Part shown: piece by piece, positions 35,912 to 41,802 of the stretch | Position numbering within the stretch: the first letter of the stretch is position 1 | How the letters are laid out: each line of letters starts with the position of its first letter | Assembly: GCF_000158955.1 (NCBI RefSeq) | Contig: NZ_GG657757.1 | Coordinates: 4,573,290 to 4,637,289 of the forward strand | DNA length: 64,000 nt | Direction: 5' to 3' | From: Streptomyces viridochromogenes DSM 40736 | GTDB lineage: Bacteria > Actinomycetota > Actinomycetes > Streptomycetales > Streptomycetaceae | The notes under the pieces: generated by a model | What the model saw: the letters and a program-made list of their open reading frames with translations, nothing else | Told to the model about the DNA's origin: nothing | Databases searched by the model: none | Program-made: the position numbers and the translations under genes

Positions 35912-36448
35912 TCGGCACCCCTCTCCGTACTACGTACTACGGCTTGCCTCGCGAGGCTGTTCAGCCGACGACCCGTCACCTGATTCGAACGAGGACTTTC
36001 CGCCGACAGTTCGCCTCCTGACAGTCGCCATTTCCGGAGTGCCGGGTTTTCCATTCGACTGATCCGTTCCGGAGAAAATCGTTCCGGAGAAAACCGTTCC
36101 GGAGGAACCGGGGGGCCGACCGGCGAGGGGCCTGCCTCACCCGTGGGGCGGGCCTCGGCCCTGTCCGGCGCCCGTCCGCGACAGCGGGAACCGGCCGATG
36201 ACCTGTGCGCCCTGTCGATCGCTCTGGCGTGACCGCGACCTTCGGGGTTCTCAGGACGTCCACATTCCGCGAATGGGTTTTCGAACCTGCTTCGCTTCTC
36301 CTTCCCTTCCGTCCCGGGTGAATCATCCGTTCTCACAGGGGGCGGCAGATACTGTCGAATTCCGCCCCGGCCGGGCGATCGGTGATTTCAGGACGTTGTC
36401 CCACAGGGAAAGCGGGAAATCGTTCCGGCATATCTACGATCGCAGGCT
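35912..36448. other. Intergenic region of about 540 bp, less GC-rich
   Basis: No convincing gene is seen. Parts are clearly poorer in GC than the flanks, unlike coding DNA here. It holds three tandem 15-bp repeats (36065-36109) and, at its right end, TACGAT (36435-36440) 8 nt before the next start codon. It presumably carries promoters of the divergent lipoprotein and amine-oxidase-remnant operon. Confidence 0.5.
36065..36109. repeat. Three tandem 15-bp repeats
   Basis: Units CGTTCCGGAGAAAAT, CGTTCCGGAGAAAAC and CGTTCCGGAGGAACC lie head to tail in the intergenic region, more than 330 bp from the nearest start codon. Confidence 0.85.
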
Positions 36449-36844
36449 ATGACCGACTTACCTCGGGACGACTCCGCCACCCGTGCGCGCCGGCAGACCT
36501 GTCTCAAGCTCGCCCGCGAACTCCTCCTCGTCGGGCCGGACGGCAAGGACCTCAAGCTCGAGCCCGACGACGCCGCCCGCTGGGACTCCATGCGCGGCGC
36601 CGAGCGCTACGTCCACGCCCTGCGCAACGGTGAGGCCGCCCTCTGCACCGCGCATCAGATGACCAGCTTCCACCTGGACGTCTCCCGGCCCGAGGGCCCC
36701 GTGCACTTCGCCGGCGAGCACACCTCCCTCAAGCACGCCTGGATCGAGGGCGCCCTGGAGAGCGCCGTGCGCGCCGCCCTCGAAGTCCACCAGGCGCCAC
36801 CGGTCACCACCCCGGGCGCCGACCGGGAGGGGGAGGGTTCATGA
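36449..36844 (+). CDS. Internally deleted flavin amine oxidase remnant (TTA codon 4)
   Basis: A 131-aa frame. Its last 45 residues ([20 protein letters not shown]) are the hallmark C-terminal FAD-contact segment of flavin monoamine/L-amino-acid oxidases. The Rossmann GxGxxG start and the substrate domain are missing; enzymes of the family have 450-550 residues, so this cannot be a working oxidase. Codon 4 is TTA (36458-36460). The frame is open and its stop overlaps the next gene as ATGA, so it may be kept for translational coupling or a small role. TACGAT upstream suggests a near-leaderless mRNA. Confidence 0.65.
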
Positions 36845-38688
36845 CCGCGATCGAGCCCGGGTGCACGGTCGCCCGCTATCTCGCCCTGCGGCTGGCCGAG
36901 TTGGGCATCACCCATCTGTTCGGCGTCCCCGGCAACCACCTCGGCCCGTTCCTGACGACCCTGCGGGCCGAGGGCGACATCGAGTGGGTCGGCACCCCGA
37001 CCGAGGGTGGCGCGGGTCAGGCCGCCGACGCCTTCGCCCGCATCCACGGTGTGGGAGCCGCGGCCGTCACGTACAGCGTGGGGGCGTTCAACCTCCTGGG
37101 CGCCTGCGGGGGCGCCTTCGTCGAGCGGATCCCGCTCATCGCGGTCAACGCCTCGCCGCCGTACGAGCAGTGGCAGAACTACCGCGCCCTCGGGCTGCTC
37201 ACCTCGCACATGAGCCCCCGCCCGGAGAGCAACCTGGACGTCTACCGGCAGGTCACCGTGGACGCGCAGGTCATCTCCAACCCGGGACTCGCGCCCGGCC
37301 AGATCGACGCCGCGCTCACCGTGTGCCTCACCGAGCGCCGGCCGGTCTACCTGGAGGTCATGGAGGACCTGTGGGACGAGCCGTGTCCCGAGCCCGGGGC
37401 GCCGATCGTCCCCCGCGAGCGGCCGTTCAGCGCGCGCGCCCAGCGCATGCTGGACCAGGCCGTGCAGGCGGTCCTCACCCTGGTCGAGGAGCATCCCGGC
37501 CCGGACGGCAGGCCCCGCCCGATCGTGTGGGCCGGCGAGGAGATCGACCGGTTCCGCCTCGGCGAGCGGCTCACCGACCTGGTGGAGGCCACGGGCGTGC
37601 CGTTCTGCACGACCGTCGGCGCCAAGGCCGTCGTGGACGAGGACCTGCCGCAGTTCCACGGCGTGTACAACGGCGGGGCCAGCCACCCGGACGTGCACAG
37701 CGTCTTCAAGGACTGGGCCACCTGCCGGATCGGGCTCGGCGCCTGGTCCACGTCGAAGAACCTCGGCGGCGAGCAGTGCGTGGGCGGCGACTGGGTGATG
37801 GCGGCGAACGGCGGTGTCAGCGTCGGCACGTCCTACTTTCCCGACGTCCAGCTCGAACTGCTGCTGCCGGCCCTCCAGGACGCGCTGGTGAAGGCGTACG
37901 GCACCGGGGGCCTGTCCGCCGACTACTACGCCGAGTCCTACGCCCACCACGGCTCACCGGGCGACCGCCCCCCGGCCCTGGAACAGCACCGCGCCGCACT
38001 GCGCACCGGCGCCTCGCGGTCCCGCCGCACGGCCGGACACCACCTCACCTACGACGGCGTCTTCGACCGGATCAACCACTTCCTGAACCACGACACCGCG
38101 GAGGACTGGACAGTCGTCTCGGACGCCGCGTTCTCCCTCATCGGCTCGATGAACCTGGCCCTGCCCGCGGGCGGGTTCCTCTCCCAGGTCAGCTGGCTGT
38201 CCATCGGCTGGTCGGTCGGCGCGGCCACCGGCGCCGCGCTCGCCCCCGAGCGCGAGTACGCCCGCCCGATGGTGTTCGTGGGCGACGGCGCCTTCCAGGA
38301 GACCTGCCAGGAGCTCTCCACCCACACCCGGCTCGGCATCCGCTCGGTGGTGTTCGTCATGGACAACGGCCACTTCTACGGCGTCGAGCAGATGCTGGTG
38401 CACCCGGAGTACTACGCGGACCGGGAGGACGGCGCCGACCCGGACTTCTACAACGTCCTCCACCCCTGGCACTACGACCGTCTCGCGGACGTCTTCGCCG
38501 GCCGGCACACCCCGGCGAACGGCGTCAGCATCGAGCACACCACGGACCTCGACGACCTCCTGGACCGTCTCAGCGACCCGGCCGACCCGGTCAACGCGGG
38601 TCCCCTCCTGGTCCGTGTCCGTCTGCACCGCCACGACTACCCGCGCGCGATGGCCTACAAGGTTCCGAAGGAGAAGGCACATGGCTGA
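36841..38688 (+). CDS. Thiamine-diphosphate-dependent decarboxylase (indolepyruvate/phenylpyruvate decarboxylase-like)
   Basis: A 615-aa enzyme of the ThDP 2-oxoacid decarboxylase group. The N-terminal domain has [13 protein letters not shown] and the activating Glu in [16 protein letters not shown]; the C-terminal domain has the ThDP/Mg motif FVGDGAFQ followed by VMDNGHFYG. The usual reaction turns a 2-oxo acid into an aldehyde. Following an amine-oxidase remnant, it may once have acted after an amino-acid oxidase. Starts inside ATGA overlap; its stop overlaps the next gene by 8 bp. Confidence 0.82.
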
Positions 38689-39190
38689 TCTCAACGTCCT
38701 GATCGCGTTCGACGCGGCGACGATCGTCGAACGCAACCCCAATGCCTCACGCAACCCCGACGCCCCGACCCAGGTCGACCACAGCCTGATCTACATGACC
38801 ACCCGGCACGACCACATCGTGGGCACGTCGGGAGCCGAGCTGAACCTCCGGGCCGAACCCGGGGACAGCATCAGGTGGCGCGAGACGACCCTGTCGCTCG
38901 GCAGCGACTACAAGGCCCTGCTCTACCGGTACGTCAGCAACGACAGCCAGCACCAGCTGATCCGGACCCCCGAGATCGAGGTGATCGACGGCATCTACCC
39001 CCTGCCGAAGGAGGGCAGCGAGGGCAGGCCGGAGTTCGACACCCAGCGCTATCAGGACCACTACTGGCGCACGACCGTCAAGAAGCGCGGCCAGGTCGTC
39101 TACCACTTCTCCTTCCAGATCCTGGACCGCCACCGCCAGTTGAAGGGCTACTTCCAGTGGGACCCGTTCATCACCATCGAGGACTCCTGA
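38681..39190 (+). CDS. AidA/PixA inclusion-body family protein
   Basis: A 169-aa protein with the clear family pattern: LNVLIAFDAATIVERNPN, PDAPTQVDHSLIYM, AEPGDSIRWRETTLSL and GYFQWDPFITI near the end. PixA forms crystalline inclusions in Xenorhabdus and AidA is linked to quorum-dependent host interaction in other bacteria; the biochemical role is unknown. A GAAGGAGAAGG ribosome site lies upstream and the start overlaps the decarboxylase gene by 8 bp, so the two are made together. Confidence 0.88.
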   Translation: MADLNVLIAFDAATIVERNPNASRNPDAPTQVDHSLIYMTTRHDHIVGTSGAELNLRAEPGDSIRWRETTLSLGSDYKALLYRYVSNDSQHQLIRTPEIEVIDGIYPLPKEGSEGRPEFDTQRYQDHYWRTTVKKRGQVVYHFSFQILDRHRQLKGYFQWDPFITIEDS

Positions 39191-39195
39191 CGGCG

Positions 39196-39469
39196 TCAGG
39201 GCCTGCGTAGTCCCGCGATGAGGAGCCCGACCAGCCGGCGCGGGTCGTGGCGGGGAACGTTGTCCGCCCCGATGCACAGGTTCGGAGTGCAGGGCGGCGG
39301 CGAGGCCGTGCTCGGTCGCGAGGACGTCGACGAACTGGTCGTCCGCCCGGGTCGGGAAGCGGCGGAGGTCCGCCCGGGTCGGGAAGTGGCGGTAGATCGT
39401 GCTCACCCCGACTCCGGCCCCGGCCGTGGCCCCCGGCACCGACCTGGCCCCGCACGAGAAGCACGGCAC
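39196..39469 (-). pseudogene. Decayed TetR-family regulator
   Basis: On the minus strand a TetR recognition helix is intact (AGVGVSTIYRHFPTRADL) but is followed by a duplicated piece (RFPTRAD twice) and then the frame is lost. About 150 bp later another frame encodes the typical TetR C-terminus (DPRRLVGLLIAGLRRP and stop at 39196). The first helices and the ligand domain are missing. It is a broken regulator lying between the AidA/PixA gene and a LysR gene. Confidence 0.7.
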
Positions 39470-39543: not shown

Positions 39544-40455
39544 GTGGAGCTCCTGCACCTGCGTTACTTCGTCGCCGTCGCCCAAGAACTGAACTTCTCC
39601 ACCGCGGCCCGCAAACTGCACATGGCGGCCTCCCCGTTGAGCCGGCGTATCAGGGATCTCGAGAACGAGCTCGGACACCGGCTGTTCGACCGGGACACCC
39701 ATCATGTGCGGCTCACCACGGCCGGCAGCGCGCTGCTGCCGATCGCGCGCGGTGTCCTGGAGCAGGTCGACTCCATCCAGTGGCGGCTGGACGAGACCAC
39801 CCGCCCACGGCGGACCACCCTGCTGCTCGGCGTGCCCAGCGGTGTCCACCCGGACCTGAGGACCCGGATGGACGACCTCGCCGAGCGGGTCGCCGACCGG
39901 TTCGAGATCAAACGCTGGCCGGGCGGCACCGAGCGGCTGGTGGACGCGGTGTGCGACGGCAGACTGGCGCTGACCCTGGCCCGGCTCCCGGCCGGCGGCG
40001 ACCCGGCCCTGGAACAGCTGCCGGTGATGTCGGAGCGGCTCGGCGCGGTCGTGCCCAGGGACCGGTTCGCGGGGCGTGAGTCGATCGCCCTGGCGGAGCT
40101 GACCGAGCTCGCCTACGCGGGGTCCCCCACGGCCGTGACCAACGCGTATTTCCGGGGGCTCGACCAGCAGCTCTCCGAGCTGGGCATCAGGAAACGGATC
40201 GATCTGGGCAGCGCCACTTTCGAGGGAGTTTCCGAAATCGTGTCCAGTGGTCTGGCATTCTCCATTTCCATGCTGGATCCGCGGAGTCCGGTGCAGAATT
40301 ACCGTCTCGACAATGTGACCGTCCTGCCCTTCTCGGATTTCCAGCCCCGGCTGGAGACCGGACTGCTGTGGCGCAAGGACCGGGCGCACGGCGGTGACCT
40401 GGAGGAAGTCATCGCCGTCGCGCGTGAGGTCTTCGCCGAACCGCTCCACGCATAA
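39544..40455 (+). CDS. LysR-family regulator
   Basis: A 303-aa regulator. N-terminal winged helix (LRYFVAVAQELNFSTAARKL, SPLSRRIRDLENELGHRLF) and a substrate-binding-like domain. The C-terminal half is less GC-biased around 40200-40320. AGGGTGA lies 5 nt before GTG 39544. It ends in a terminator and precedes the five-gene acyl-CoA operon on the same strand, which it may control. Confidence 0.9.
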   Translation: MELLHLRYFVAVAQELNFSTAARKLHMAASPLSRRIRDLENELGHRLFDRDTHHVRLTTAGSALLPIARGVLEQVDSIQWRLDETTRPRRTTLLLGVPSGVHPDLRTRMDDLAERVADRFEIKRWPGGTERLVDAVCDGRLALTLARLPAGGDPALEQLPVMSERLGAVVPRDRFAGRESIALAELTELAYAGSPTAVTNAYFRGLDQQLSELGIRKRIDLGSATFEGVSEIVSSGLAFSISMLDPRSPVQNYRLDNVTVLPFSDFQPRLETGLLWRKDRAHGGDLEEVIAVAREVFAEPLHA

Positions 40456-40529: not shown

Positions 40530-40632
40530 TTCGTTATTCGGTCATTCCGTTTCGTTCCGTTTCCCGCACCTCCTTGCTAACTTAGTTTCCAGATACACAT
40601 ACATGGTGAAGCGAGGAAGGGAAGGAAAAGTG

Positions 40633-41802
40633 ATGACGGACCTCACGGACACCGCCGCCGGCCCCCTGGAGGGCGTGCGCGTGATCGACCTCTCGACCGT
40701 GGTGATGGGCCCCTACGCCGCCCAGATCCTCGGCGACCTGGGCGCCGACGTGATCAAGATCGAGTCGCCCTCCGACACCGTGCGCGTGGGCCACTACAAG
40801 ACCACGCCGGGCATGACCCCGCTGAACCTCAACGTCAACCGCAACAAGCGCAGCGTCGCCCTCAACCTCAAGGACGACACGGACCGCGAGCGGGCGCTGC
40901 GGCTGATCGACACCGCGGACGTGCTGATCACCAACATGCGGCCCGGCGCGCTGCACCGCCTCGGCCTGTCCTACACCGACATCGCCGCCCGCAACCCCGG
41001 CCTCGTGTACGCGCACGCCCAGGGCTTCCGCAGCGACTCGGACCGCGCCGGCAACGCCGCGTACGACGAGACCGTGCAGGCCGCTTCCGGCCTGGTCGAC
41101 ATCGCCGACCGCGCGCTGGGCGAGCCCGTCTACCTGCCGACCATCATCGGCGACAAGGTCTCCTCGCTGACCATCGCCTACAGCGTGCTGGCCGCCCTGC
41201 TGCACCGGAACCGGACCGGCGAGGGCCAGCTCGTCGAGATCCCGATGACGGACACGCTGATCGCGTTCAACCTGGTGGAGCACCTGGCCGGGCACACCCA
41301 CGTGCCCGAGAGCGCCCCCACCGGGTTCCCGCTGTCGATGCTCAAGGGACACAAGGCGGTGCGCACCAAGGACGGCCTGGCCTGTGTCATCCCGTACAAC
41401 CCGCAGAACTACCGGGACTTCTTCACCGCCGCCGGACGCCCGGACCTCGCCGAGGACCCGCGCGTGGGCGGGGACGCCGTCGACAGCGCCGACCACGAGG
41501 ACCTGGCCGCCCTGGTCGACGCGTGCGCCCCGGAACTGACCACCGAGGAGTGGGCGGAGGTCTGCGCGAAGCACAGCATCCCGATGGCGCCGGTACTGGA
41601 ACTGGACCGTGCCCACGACGACCCGTACGTCCGCGACGGCCACCTGCTGGACACCGTCGAGCACCCCACCGAGGGCTCGGTCCGCACCATCGGCATCCCG
41701 CTGCGCTTCTCCGCCACGCCCGGCTCGATCCGCCGTCTGGCGCCGGTCGCCGGCCAGGACACCGAGGACGTCCTCGCCGAACTCGACGCCGCCACCCGCT
41801 GA
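40633..41802 (+). CDS. Class III (CaiB/BaiF-type) CoA-transferase
   Basis: A 389-aa enzyme that moves CoA between carboxylic acids. Family marks: GVRVIDLSTVVMGPYAAQ, LGDLGADVIKIE, NVNRNKRSVALNL and the catalytic Asp probably in AAYDETVQAASG. ATG 40633 has GGAAGGA upstream. It is first in a five-gene operon; 48 bp before the start is the inverted repeat CTAACTTAG (40577-40585) in an AT-rich promoter region, a possible LysR or other regulator site. It probably activates the pathway acid to its CoA ester. Confidence 0.88.
   Translation: MTDLTDTAAGPLEGVRVIDLSTVVMGPYAAQILGDLGADVIKIESPSDTVRVGHYKTTPGMTPLNLNVNRNKRSVALNLKDDTDRERALRLIDTADVLITNMRPGALHRLGLSYTDIAARNPGLVYAHAQGFRSDSDRAGNAAYDETVQAASGLVDIADRALGEPVYLPTIIGDKVSSLTIAYSVLAALLHRNRTGEGQLVEIPMTDTLIAFNLVEHLAGHTHVPESAPTGFPLSMLKGHKAVRTKDGLACVIPYNPQNYRDFFTAAGRPDLAEDPRVGGDAVDSADHEDLAALVDACAPELTTEEWAEVCAKHSIPMAPVLELDRAHDDPYVRDGHLLDTVEHPTEGSVRTIGIPLRFSATPGSIRRLAPVAGQDTEDVLAELDAATR

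Follow-up and report, generated by a model that had tools for sequence, protein, structure and literature searches.

A decayed L-glutamate-oxidase-type gene stands at the head of a three-gene operon in Streptomyces viridochromogenes DSM 40736. By a slight balance of the sequence evidence it appears to be kept as a translated leader that lacks an SD site and is coupled to the genes of a decarboxylase-like enzyme and an AidA protein (aidA). The kind of arrangement is already known from overlapping gene pairs under bldA/TTA control; new here is a decayed enzyme gene as the first gene. The window, i.e. the whole stretch of DNA that was analysed (64,000 nt), covers positions 4573290-4637289 of a genome assembled as a single contig (8.65 Mb, rated 99.99% complete).

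Structure of the operon

The following features were located in the window.

36435..36440, + strand: TACGAT, a -10-like box, 8 nt before the remnant ATG
36449..36844, + strand: oxidase remnant ORF (131 aa, 131 codons, open), an internally deleted L-glutamate-oxidase-type gene
36449..36559, + strand: kept oxidase residues 1-37, from sequence comparison
36458..36460, + strand: TTA, codon 4 of the oxidase remnant
36560..36565, + strand: codons E38-P39, marking where deletion 1 joins (1572 nt gone relative to G009/L032)
36566..36628, + strand: kept stretch of the oxidase C-terminal region, as far as deletion 2
36629..36841, + strand: kept C-terminal end, presumably the flavin-contact region; deletion 2 (87 nt) falls between 36628 and 36629
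36825..36837, + strand: SD-like GGGAGGGGGAGGG for the decarboxylase, within the last codons of the remnant
36841..38688, + strand: ThDP-dependent 2-oxo-acid-decarboxylase-like enzyme (615 aa), intact and conserved
38668..38673, + strand: SD-like AAGGAG for aidA
38681..39190, + strand: AidA/PixA family protein, aidA (169 aa)

The remnant begins with ATG ACC GAC TTA, and its stop is joined to the decarboxylase start by ATGA, a 4-base overlap (-4). The decarboxylase end and the aidA start share 8 nt (ATGGCTGA). The first-pass annotation had placed all three genes correctly, including the ATGA junction, the TTA at codon 4 and the decarboxylase/aidA overlap. Its statement that the fragment keeps only the C-terminal segment of an amine oxidase was not upheld: the oxidase N-terminus is also there, and residues 1-37 share 92% identity with the full-length gene in genome G009. 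Residues 40-131 align with oxidase positions 564-684, with 29 residues absent within. At the DNA level, the deletions were 1572 and 87 nt when compared with G009 (locus L032) or with S. violaceus (L064), and 1557 and 87 nt when compared with S. coeruleorubidus (L063); all are multiples of 3, whichever of the three references is used. The E-P codons at the first junction derive from neither edge and might record one more step in the deletion history.

Pfam recognized only the C-terminal end of Amino_oxidase in the remnant (residues 71-113, profile 399-442 of 443, PF01593), and in this flavin-contact end the window copy is like L-glutamate and L-amino-acid oxidases. It differs from L-glutamate oxidase in that about 81% of the protein is missing; among the lost parts are the FAD Rossmann segment (GAGITGLVAG) and the region of an Arg that we take to recognize the substrate. 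Having neither this Arg nor the Rossmann segment, the product cannot be an oxidase. Wide conservation of the 131-aa protein at its own length, which the first-pass annotation had set against its reading, was not seen in the genomes searched: there was no other full-length match in 199 genomes of the genus or in 395 relatives (overlapping sets). The protein was rejected as a family of its own, as no other genome searched has that form. A plasmid search gave no match.

Two genes lie 3' of the operon, which from their look we take to be LysR-like (39544-40455) and CoA-transferase-like (40603-41802). This pair stands behind the operon in the window, L032, L033, L063, L065, L087 and L090, and no such match was found inside the flanks of the remaining fetched loci, so that the operon seems to occupy different places.

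Full-length relatives

Forty-two intact oxidase homologues (678-699 aa) were found directly 5' of the same decarboxylase, with AidA behind in 41 of them, which is not a chance arrangement. The trio with a full-length oxidase, for which the first-pass annotation had proposed a search, thus recurs in Streptomyces. The nearest known enzyme of the intact orthologues is Streptomyces L-glutamate oxidase (PDB 2e1m, 7e0c); the full-length proteins of G009 (residues 17-674) and S. coeruleorubidus (residues 17-669) each matched 7e0c with 942 bits. All 43 intact orthologues examined have an Arg, within RLHL (37) or RLYL (6), at the place of Arg305, which we take to be the glutamate-recognizing residue of L-glutamate oxidase. 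PDB 7e0c carries Glu at this place and is presumably an engineered mutant. The exact motif GAG[IV]TGLVAG was present in 35/43 intact oxidase genes.

The decarboxylase contains the three TPP_enzyme domains (N, M and C) in Pfam, like the pyruvate, indolepyruvate and phenylpyruvate decarboxylases, and its best matches were PDC and IPDC. It is unlike these enzymes in falling far under the curated cut-offs (160.4 bits with TIGR03393, indolepyruvate decarboxylase, for a cut-off of 946) and in two replacements, Ser for the first His of the HH pair and Asn for the N-terminal Asp, both of which we assume to be catalytic residues. A putative pathway would lead from an L-amino acid to a 2-oxo acid (with peroxide and ammonia) and then to an aldehyde. 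The AidA protein matched PixA over its whole length (PF12306, E = 2e-48, profile 3-165 of 165). Matches to solved PixA-family chains were weaker: 4pib (3.8e-8) and 4lzk (5e-4), the latter a Burkholderia cenocepacia protein according to an extract of PMC9060813. Here a member of the PixA/AidA proteins is found in a Streptomyces operon with an amino-acid oxidase and a decarboxylase.

For the comparison of operons, decarboxylases at least 99% identical were removed, which gave 47 non-redundant loci, each with a decarboxylase; L087, with no decarboxylase, stands outside this set. The oxidase/decarboxylase overlap is -4 in 44/47 loci, the three shortened oxidases included. The exceptions are L060 (-1) and two loci with frameshifts in the recorded genes (L090 and L094). 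The 8-nt decarboxylase/aidA overlap of the window was found in only 13/46 loci. Scanning genomes with AidA yielded 40 loci, some of which do not have the trio; a close AidA was present in 22/392 genomes of the genus, and further searches of the genus gave no additional loci. Streptomyces sp. 8K308, which has the trio, also has a second AidA (L100:966-1466, 56% identical) with no oxidase or decarboxylase match.

In G009, the oxidase and the decarboxylase are present and AidA is absent. Other ORFs, among them a minus-strand ORF of 232 aa, lie there between the decarboxylase and the LysR-like gene (L032:6257-7300). In a more distant clade, six loci (L040-L045) likewise have an oxidase and a 56-57% identical decarboxylase, with no AidA match. 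The oxidase/decarboxylase-like pair therefore looks like the core of the operon, to which AidA was added. This partly resolves the pairing of a decarboxylase with an inclusion-body protein, which had been called unexplained. In listings of published work on L-glutamate oxidase/decarboxylase operons or on AidA in Streptomyces, nothing was recognized as this operon.

Shortened oxidases in other lineages

Two other oxidases are shortened in frame, to 223 aa in Streptomyces sp. NWU339 (L069) and to 102 aa in S. viridosporus NRRL 2414 (L070). Compared with S. hirsutus (L080), NWU339 has lost 1215 and 150 nt and has a 3-nt difference, and S. viridosporus has lost 1761 nt and gained 30 nt. In the decarboxylase tree, from which L094 was left out, the window paired with S. 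tuirus (100/99), and NWU339 paired with S. viridosporus in another part (100/100). Since the two groups are apart on the tree and their deletions are different, the oxidase was shortened at least twice independently. NWU339 and S. viridosporus have in common a Leu-to-Pro replacement where the other 43 rows, window included, all have Leu; decay may thus have begun in their ancestor.

The oxidase and the decarboxylase are both deleted in S. caniscabiei (L066:6967-7008; L066 is the same DNA as L049 of genome G248), and an ORF of 13 codons is left. There, MTDAPQGKGTGDG comes after the promoter region and start of the oxidase, and its end is similar to the C-terminal end of the decarboxylase in relatives (KGTGNG in L093). 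The stop of this ORF overlaps the aidA start by 8 nt, and the AidA protein has violations at 0/74 conserved sites. Judged from its sequence, this is a third reduction event, again in frame and with the overlap kept. In S. africanus (L087:6778-7456), the decarboxylase is lost and the first 74 oxidase codons are joined, out of frame, to codon 19 of aidA. The aidA start being lost as well, this locus is no test of coupling.

In the sister of the window, S. tuirus PHM034 (L090), the oxidase frame is broken, with an intact decarboxylase behind it. Of five 1-base gaps, the oxidase has two and aidA three, all of them within or next to C/G runs, and the CoA-transferase-like gene of this record also shifts frame near its end. 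For these reasons the breaks were taken as probable sequencing errors and S. tuirus was set aside as a counter-example; if they were a genuine frameshift, they would count against the keeping of the frame.

Constraint and reading frame

Sites identical in all intact relatives were used to measure constraint; the frameshifted records L090 and L094 were left out, as were, for AidA, the shortened AidA proteins of L088 and L093. The window remnant differs at 4/83 such sites (W15R, Y56H, Y66C and A112E in its own numbering) and the two other remnants at 11/117 and 10/57, for at most 2 differences in intact oxidases under leave-one-out (n = 42). In the same three genomes, 2, 5 and 4 of 336 conserved decarboxylase sites differ (intact maximum 5, n = 42), as do 0, 0 and 0 of 74 AidA sites (intact maximum 2, n = 39). 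The decarboxylase and AidA thus remain conserved beside the shortened oxidases, and relaxed constraint in the window remnant rests on four residues.

In retained codons, pN/pS of L069 was 0.92 with L080 and 0.88 with L050 (intact pair, 0.60), and that of L070 was 1.05 and 0.74 (intact pair, 0.53). L069 compared with L070 gave 2.94, on just 3 synonymous differences. The window remnant gave 0.22-0.30 in three comparisons, for 0.29-0.56 in four intact pairs. Its pN/pS is not raised and the deletion there is therefore probably young.

All six large deletions (two in the window, two in L069, one in L070 and one in L066) are in frame. This is suggestive of frame-keeping, and the L069 and L070 deletions are perhaps dependent. 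As a control, identical k-mers at least 60 nt apart were counted in six intact oxidase genes: 49-51% (k = 3) to 74-83% (k = 8) of the pairs were in phase. Since codon periodicity favours in-phase repeats, in-frame deletions would be common without selection if they arise via microhomology. A (1/3)^n argument for frame-keeping was dropped as too strong after this control.

Translation signals and TTA codons

TACGAT stands at the same 8-nt distance from the oxidase start in 45/48 loci, and no SD-like GGAG, GAGG or AGGA was found within 20 nt 5' of this start in 45/47 loci. From this spacing and the missing SD, the operon mRNA is probably leaderless or nearly so. A simple scan for a sigma-70 promoter and a terminator over 36200-39400 found none. 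An SD-like motif (lenient pattern) precedes the decarboxylase in 42/47 loci, and in the window the decarboxylase may initiate alone from its own good SD-like site. The fold predicted at the remnant/decarboxylase junction is no stronger than that of shuffled sequences (z +0.89). With translationally coupled leader ORFs the remnant shares the overlap of its stop with the start of the downstream gene (-4).

TTA is found at codon 4 of the oxidase gene in 5/47 loci (the window, L032, L063, L065 and L072) and also in L087. Counting all positions, 23/47 loci have one TTA each in this gene, at codon 4, 26, 74, 122, 437 or 502; that of S. tuirus is at codon 74 and not at codon 4. No decarboxylase has TTA (0/47), and AidA has it, at codon 80, in 3/46 loci, all of them in operons whose oxidase gene has none. 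Over the 47 loci, 26 operons contain exactly one TTA, 21 none and 0 two. Among the Leu codons of intact genes, TTA accounts for 20/2322 in the oxidase versus 0/2618 in the decarboxylase (Fisher 2.7e-7, uncorrected for kinship); TTG, CTT and CTA together are not enriched in the intact oxidases (44 versus 57 in the decarboxylase). Codons 26, 74, 122 and 437 are conserved Leu, mostly CTC or CTG in other loci, so TTA would have been gained there by at least two changes. No TTA is present in the shortened versions of NWU339, S. viridosporus and S. caniscabiei.

The first-pass annotation had proposed that the fragment may now work as a bldA-dependent gate. What stands of this is that a non-enzymatic remnant keeps its frame and coupling overlap, with a TTA in a telling place. 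That it has now become a gate is not supported: the overlap and a TTA in the leading gene occur with full-length oxidases, the putative control is therefore older than the truncation, and the other shortened versions have no TTA. In S. coelicolor, 147 chromosomal genes have TTA, according to an extract of PMC4255298. An extract of PMC2000904 describes SCO6638, which has a TTA and a stop overlapping the next start, together with SCO6637; RNA and protein of both are lower in a bldA mutant. This pair is like the operon of the window, with the TTA in the first gene and the stop over the next start, and by analogy it can serve as a direct precedent for a bldA-controlled overlapping pair. In the window operon, by contrast, a decayed enzyme gene stands first and dependence on bldA is predicted.

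Interpretation and alternatives

The ancestral operon would have encoded an L-glutamate-oxidase-type enzyme, a ThDP decarboxylase-like enzyme and AidA, in that order. The oxidase was destroyed by in-frame internal deletions, which left the start, the TTA at codon 4, the open frame and the ATGA junction. Translation of the remnant, from an SD-less and probably leaderless AUG, would bring ribosomes to the decarboxylase and then to aidA, presumably by coupling and by protection of the mRNA. With a TTA so close to the translation start, all three genes would need the bldA tRNA, as full-length operons with TTA would already have done.

Retention of the decayed gene as a leader is argued for by the different in-frame deletions in two lineages and in S. 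caniscabiei, the -4 overlap, the normal decarboxylase and AidA beside remnants that violate conserved sites, the TTA bias and the SCO6638 precedent. Against it stand the SD-like site of the decarboxylase, the ordinary junction fold, the in-frame bias, the unraised pN/pS of the window, the 21/47 operons and the other shortened versions that have no TTA, and the frame breaks of S. tuirus. A wider statement, plausible but held somewhat short of probable, is that Streptomyces repeatedly strips the oxidase gene to a translated leader (131, 223, 102 or 13 codons) with an SD-less start, an open frame and coupling, and that the single TTA of the window puts its operon under bldA as a ribosome-delivery gate.

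The remnant could instead be a plain recent pseudogene, a serious rival although itself on the doubtful side. In this case the frame would have survived by chance and microhomology bias, the decarboxylase would use its own SD and the remnant would have no role. The SD-like sites before the decarboxylase, the in-phase bias of repeats and the unraised pN/pS all fit this explanation. So does a second oxidase in the genome of the window (G000:C1:7733769-7735613, minus strand; an 812-codon open frame with about 50% identity along most of the sequence), which could make the first one dispensable; no match to the decarboxylase was found in the 8.5 kb around it (L048). In a tally of 48 genomes (E <= 1e-30), a paralogue with 47-52% identity was present in 3/3 genomes with shortened oxidases, two of which are sisters, versus 13/43 with full-length ones. 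However, this paralogue is absent from S. caniscabiei and S. africanus, which have also lost the enzyme. Every indel aligned in the three remnants is a multiple of 3, the S. caniscabiei fusion keeps both frame and overlap, and in L069 and L070 the frame is open although the protein is under little or no constraint, all of which speaks against a pseudogene.

It is improbable that the 131-aa product is a useful small protein, e.g. an FAD-domain fragment that binds a partner. The open frame, the kept C-terminal segment and the low pN/pS of the window (although most divergence may predate the deletion) would agree with this, but the length is found in no other genome searched, the three remnants are of unlike length (131, 223 and 102 aa) with conserved positions violated, and the FAD Rossmann segment is gone. 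An assembly artefact hiding a gene that is full length in the organism is more improbable still: the analysis covered a single assembly of the organism, but its genome is a nearly complete single contig, the two deletions are separate, clean and in frame, and comparable deletions occur in other assemblies.

The deletions found in this one operon form a natural series, and so offer a direct test of what a first gene must keep for expression of the genes downstream. TTA recurs in the leading gene, at different codons, and never in the decarboxylase, which makes the operon a compact candidate for convergent control by a rare codon. The trio also links the AidA/PixA proteins, which are poorly understood, to the oxidation of amino acids in Streptomyces.
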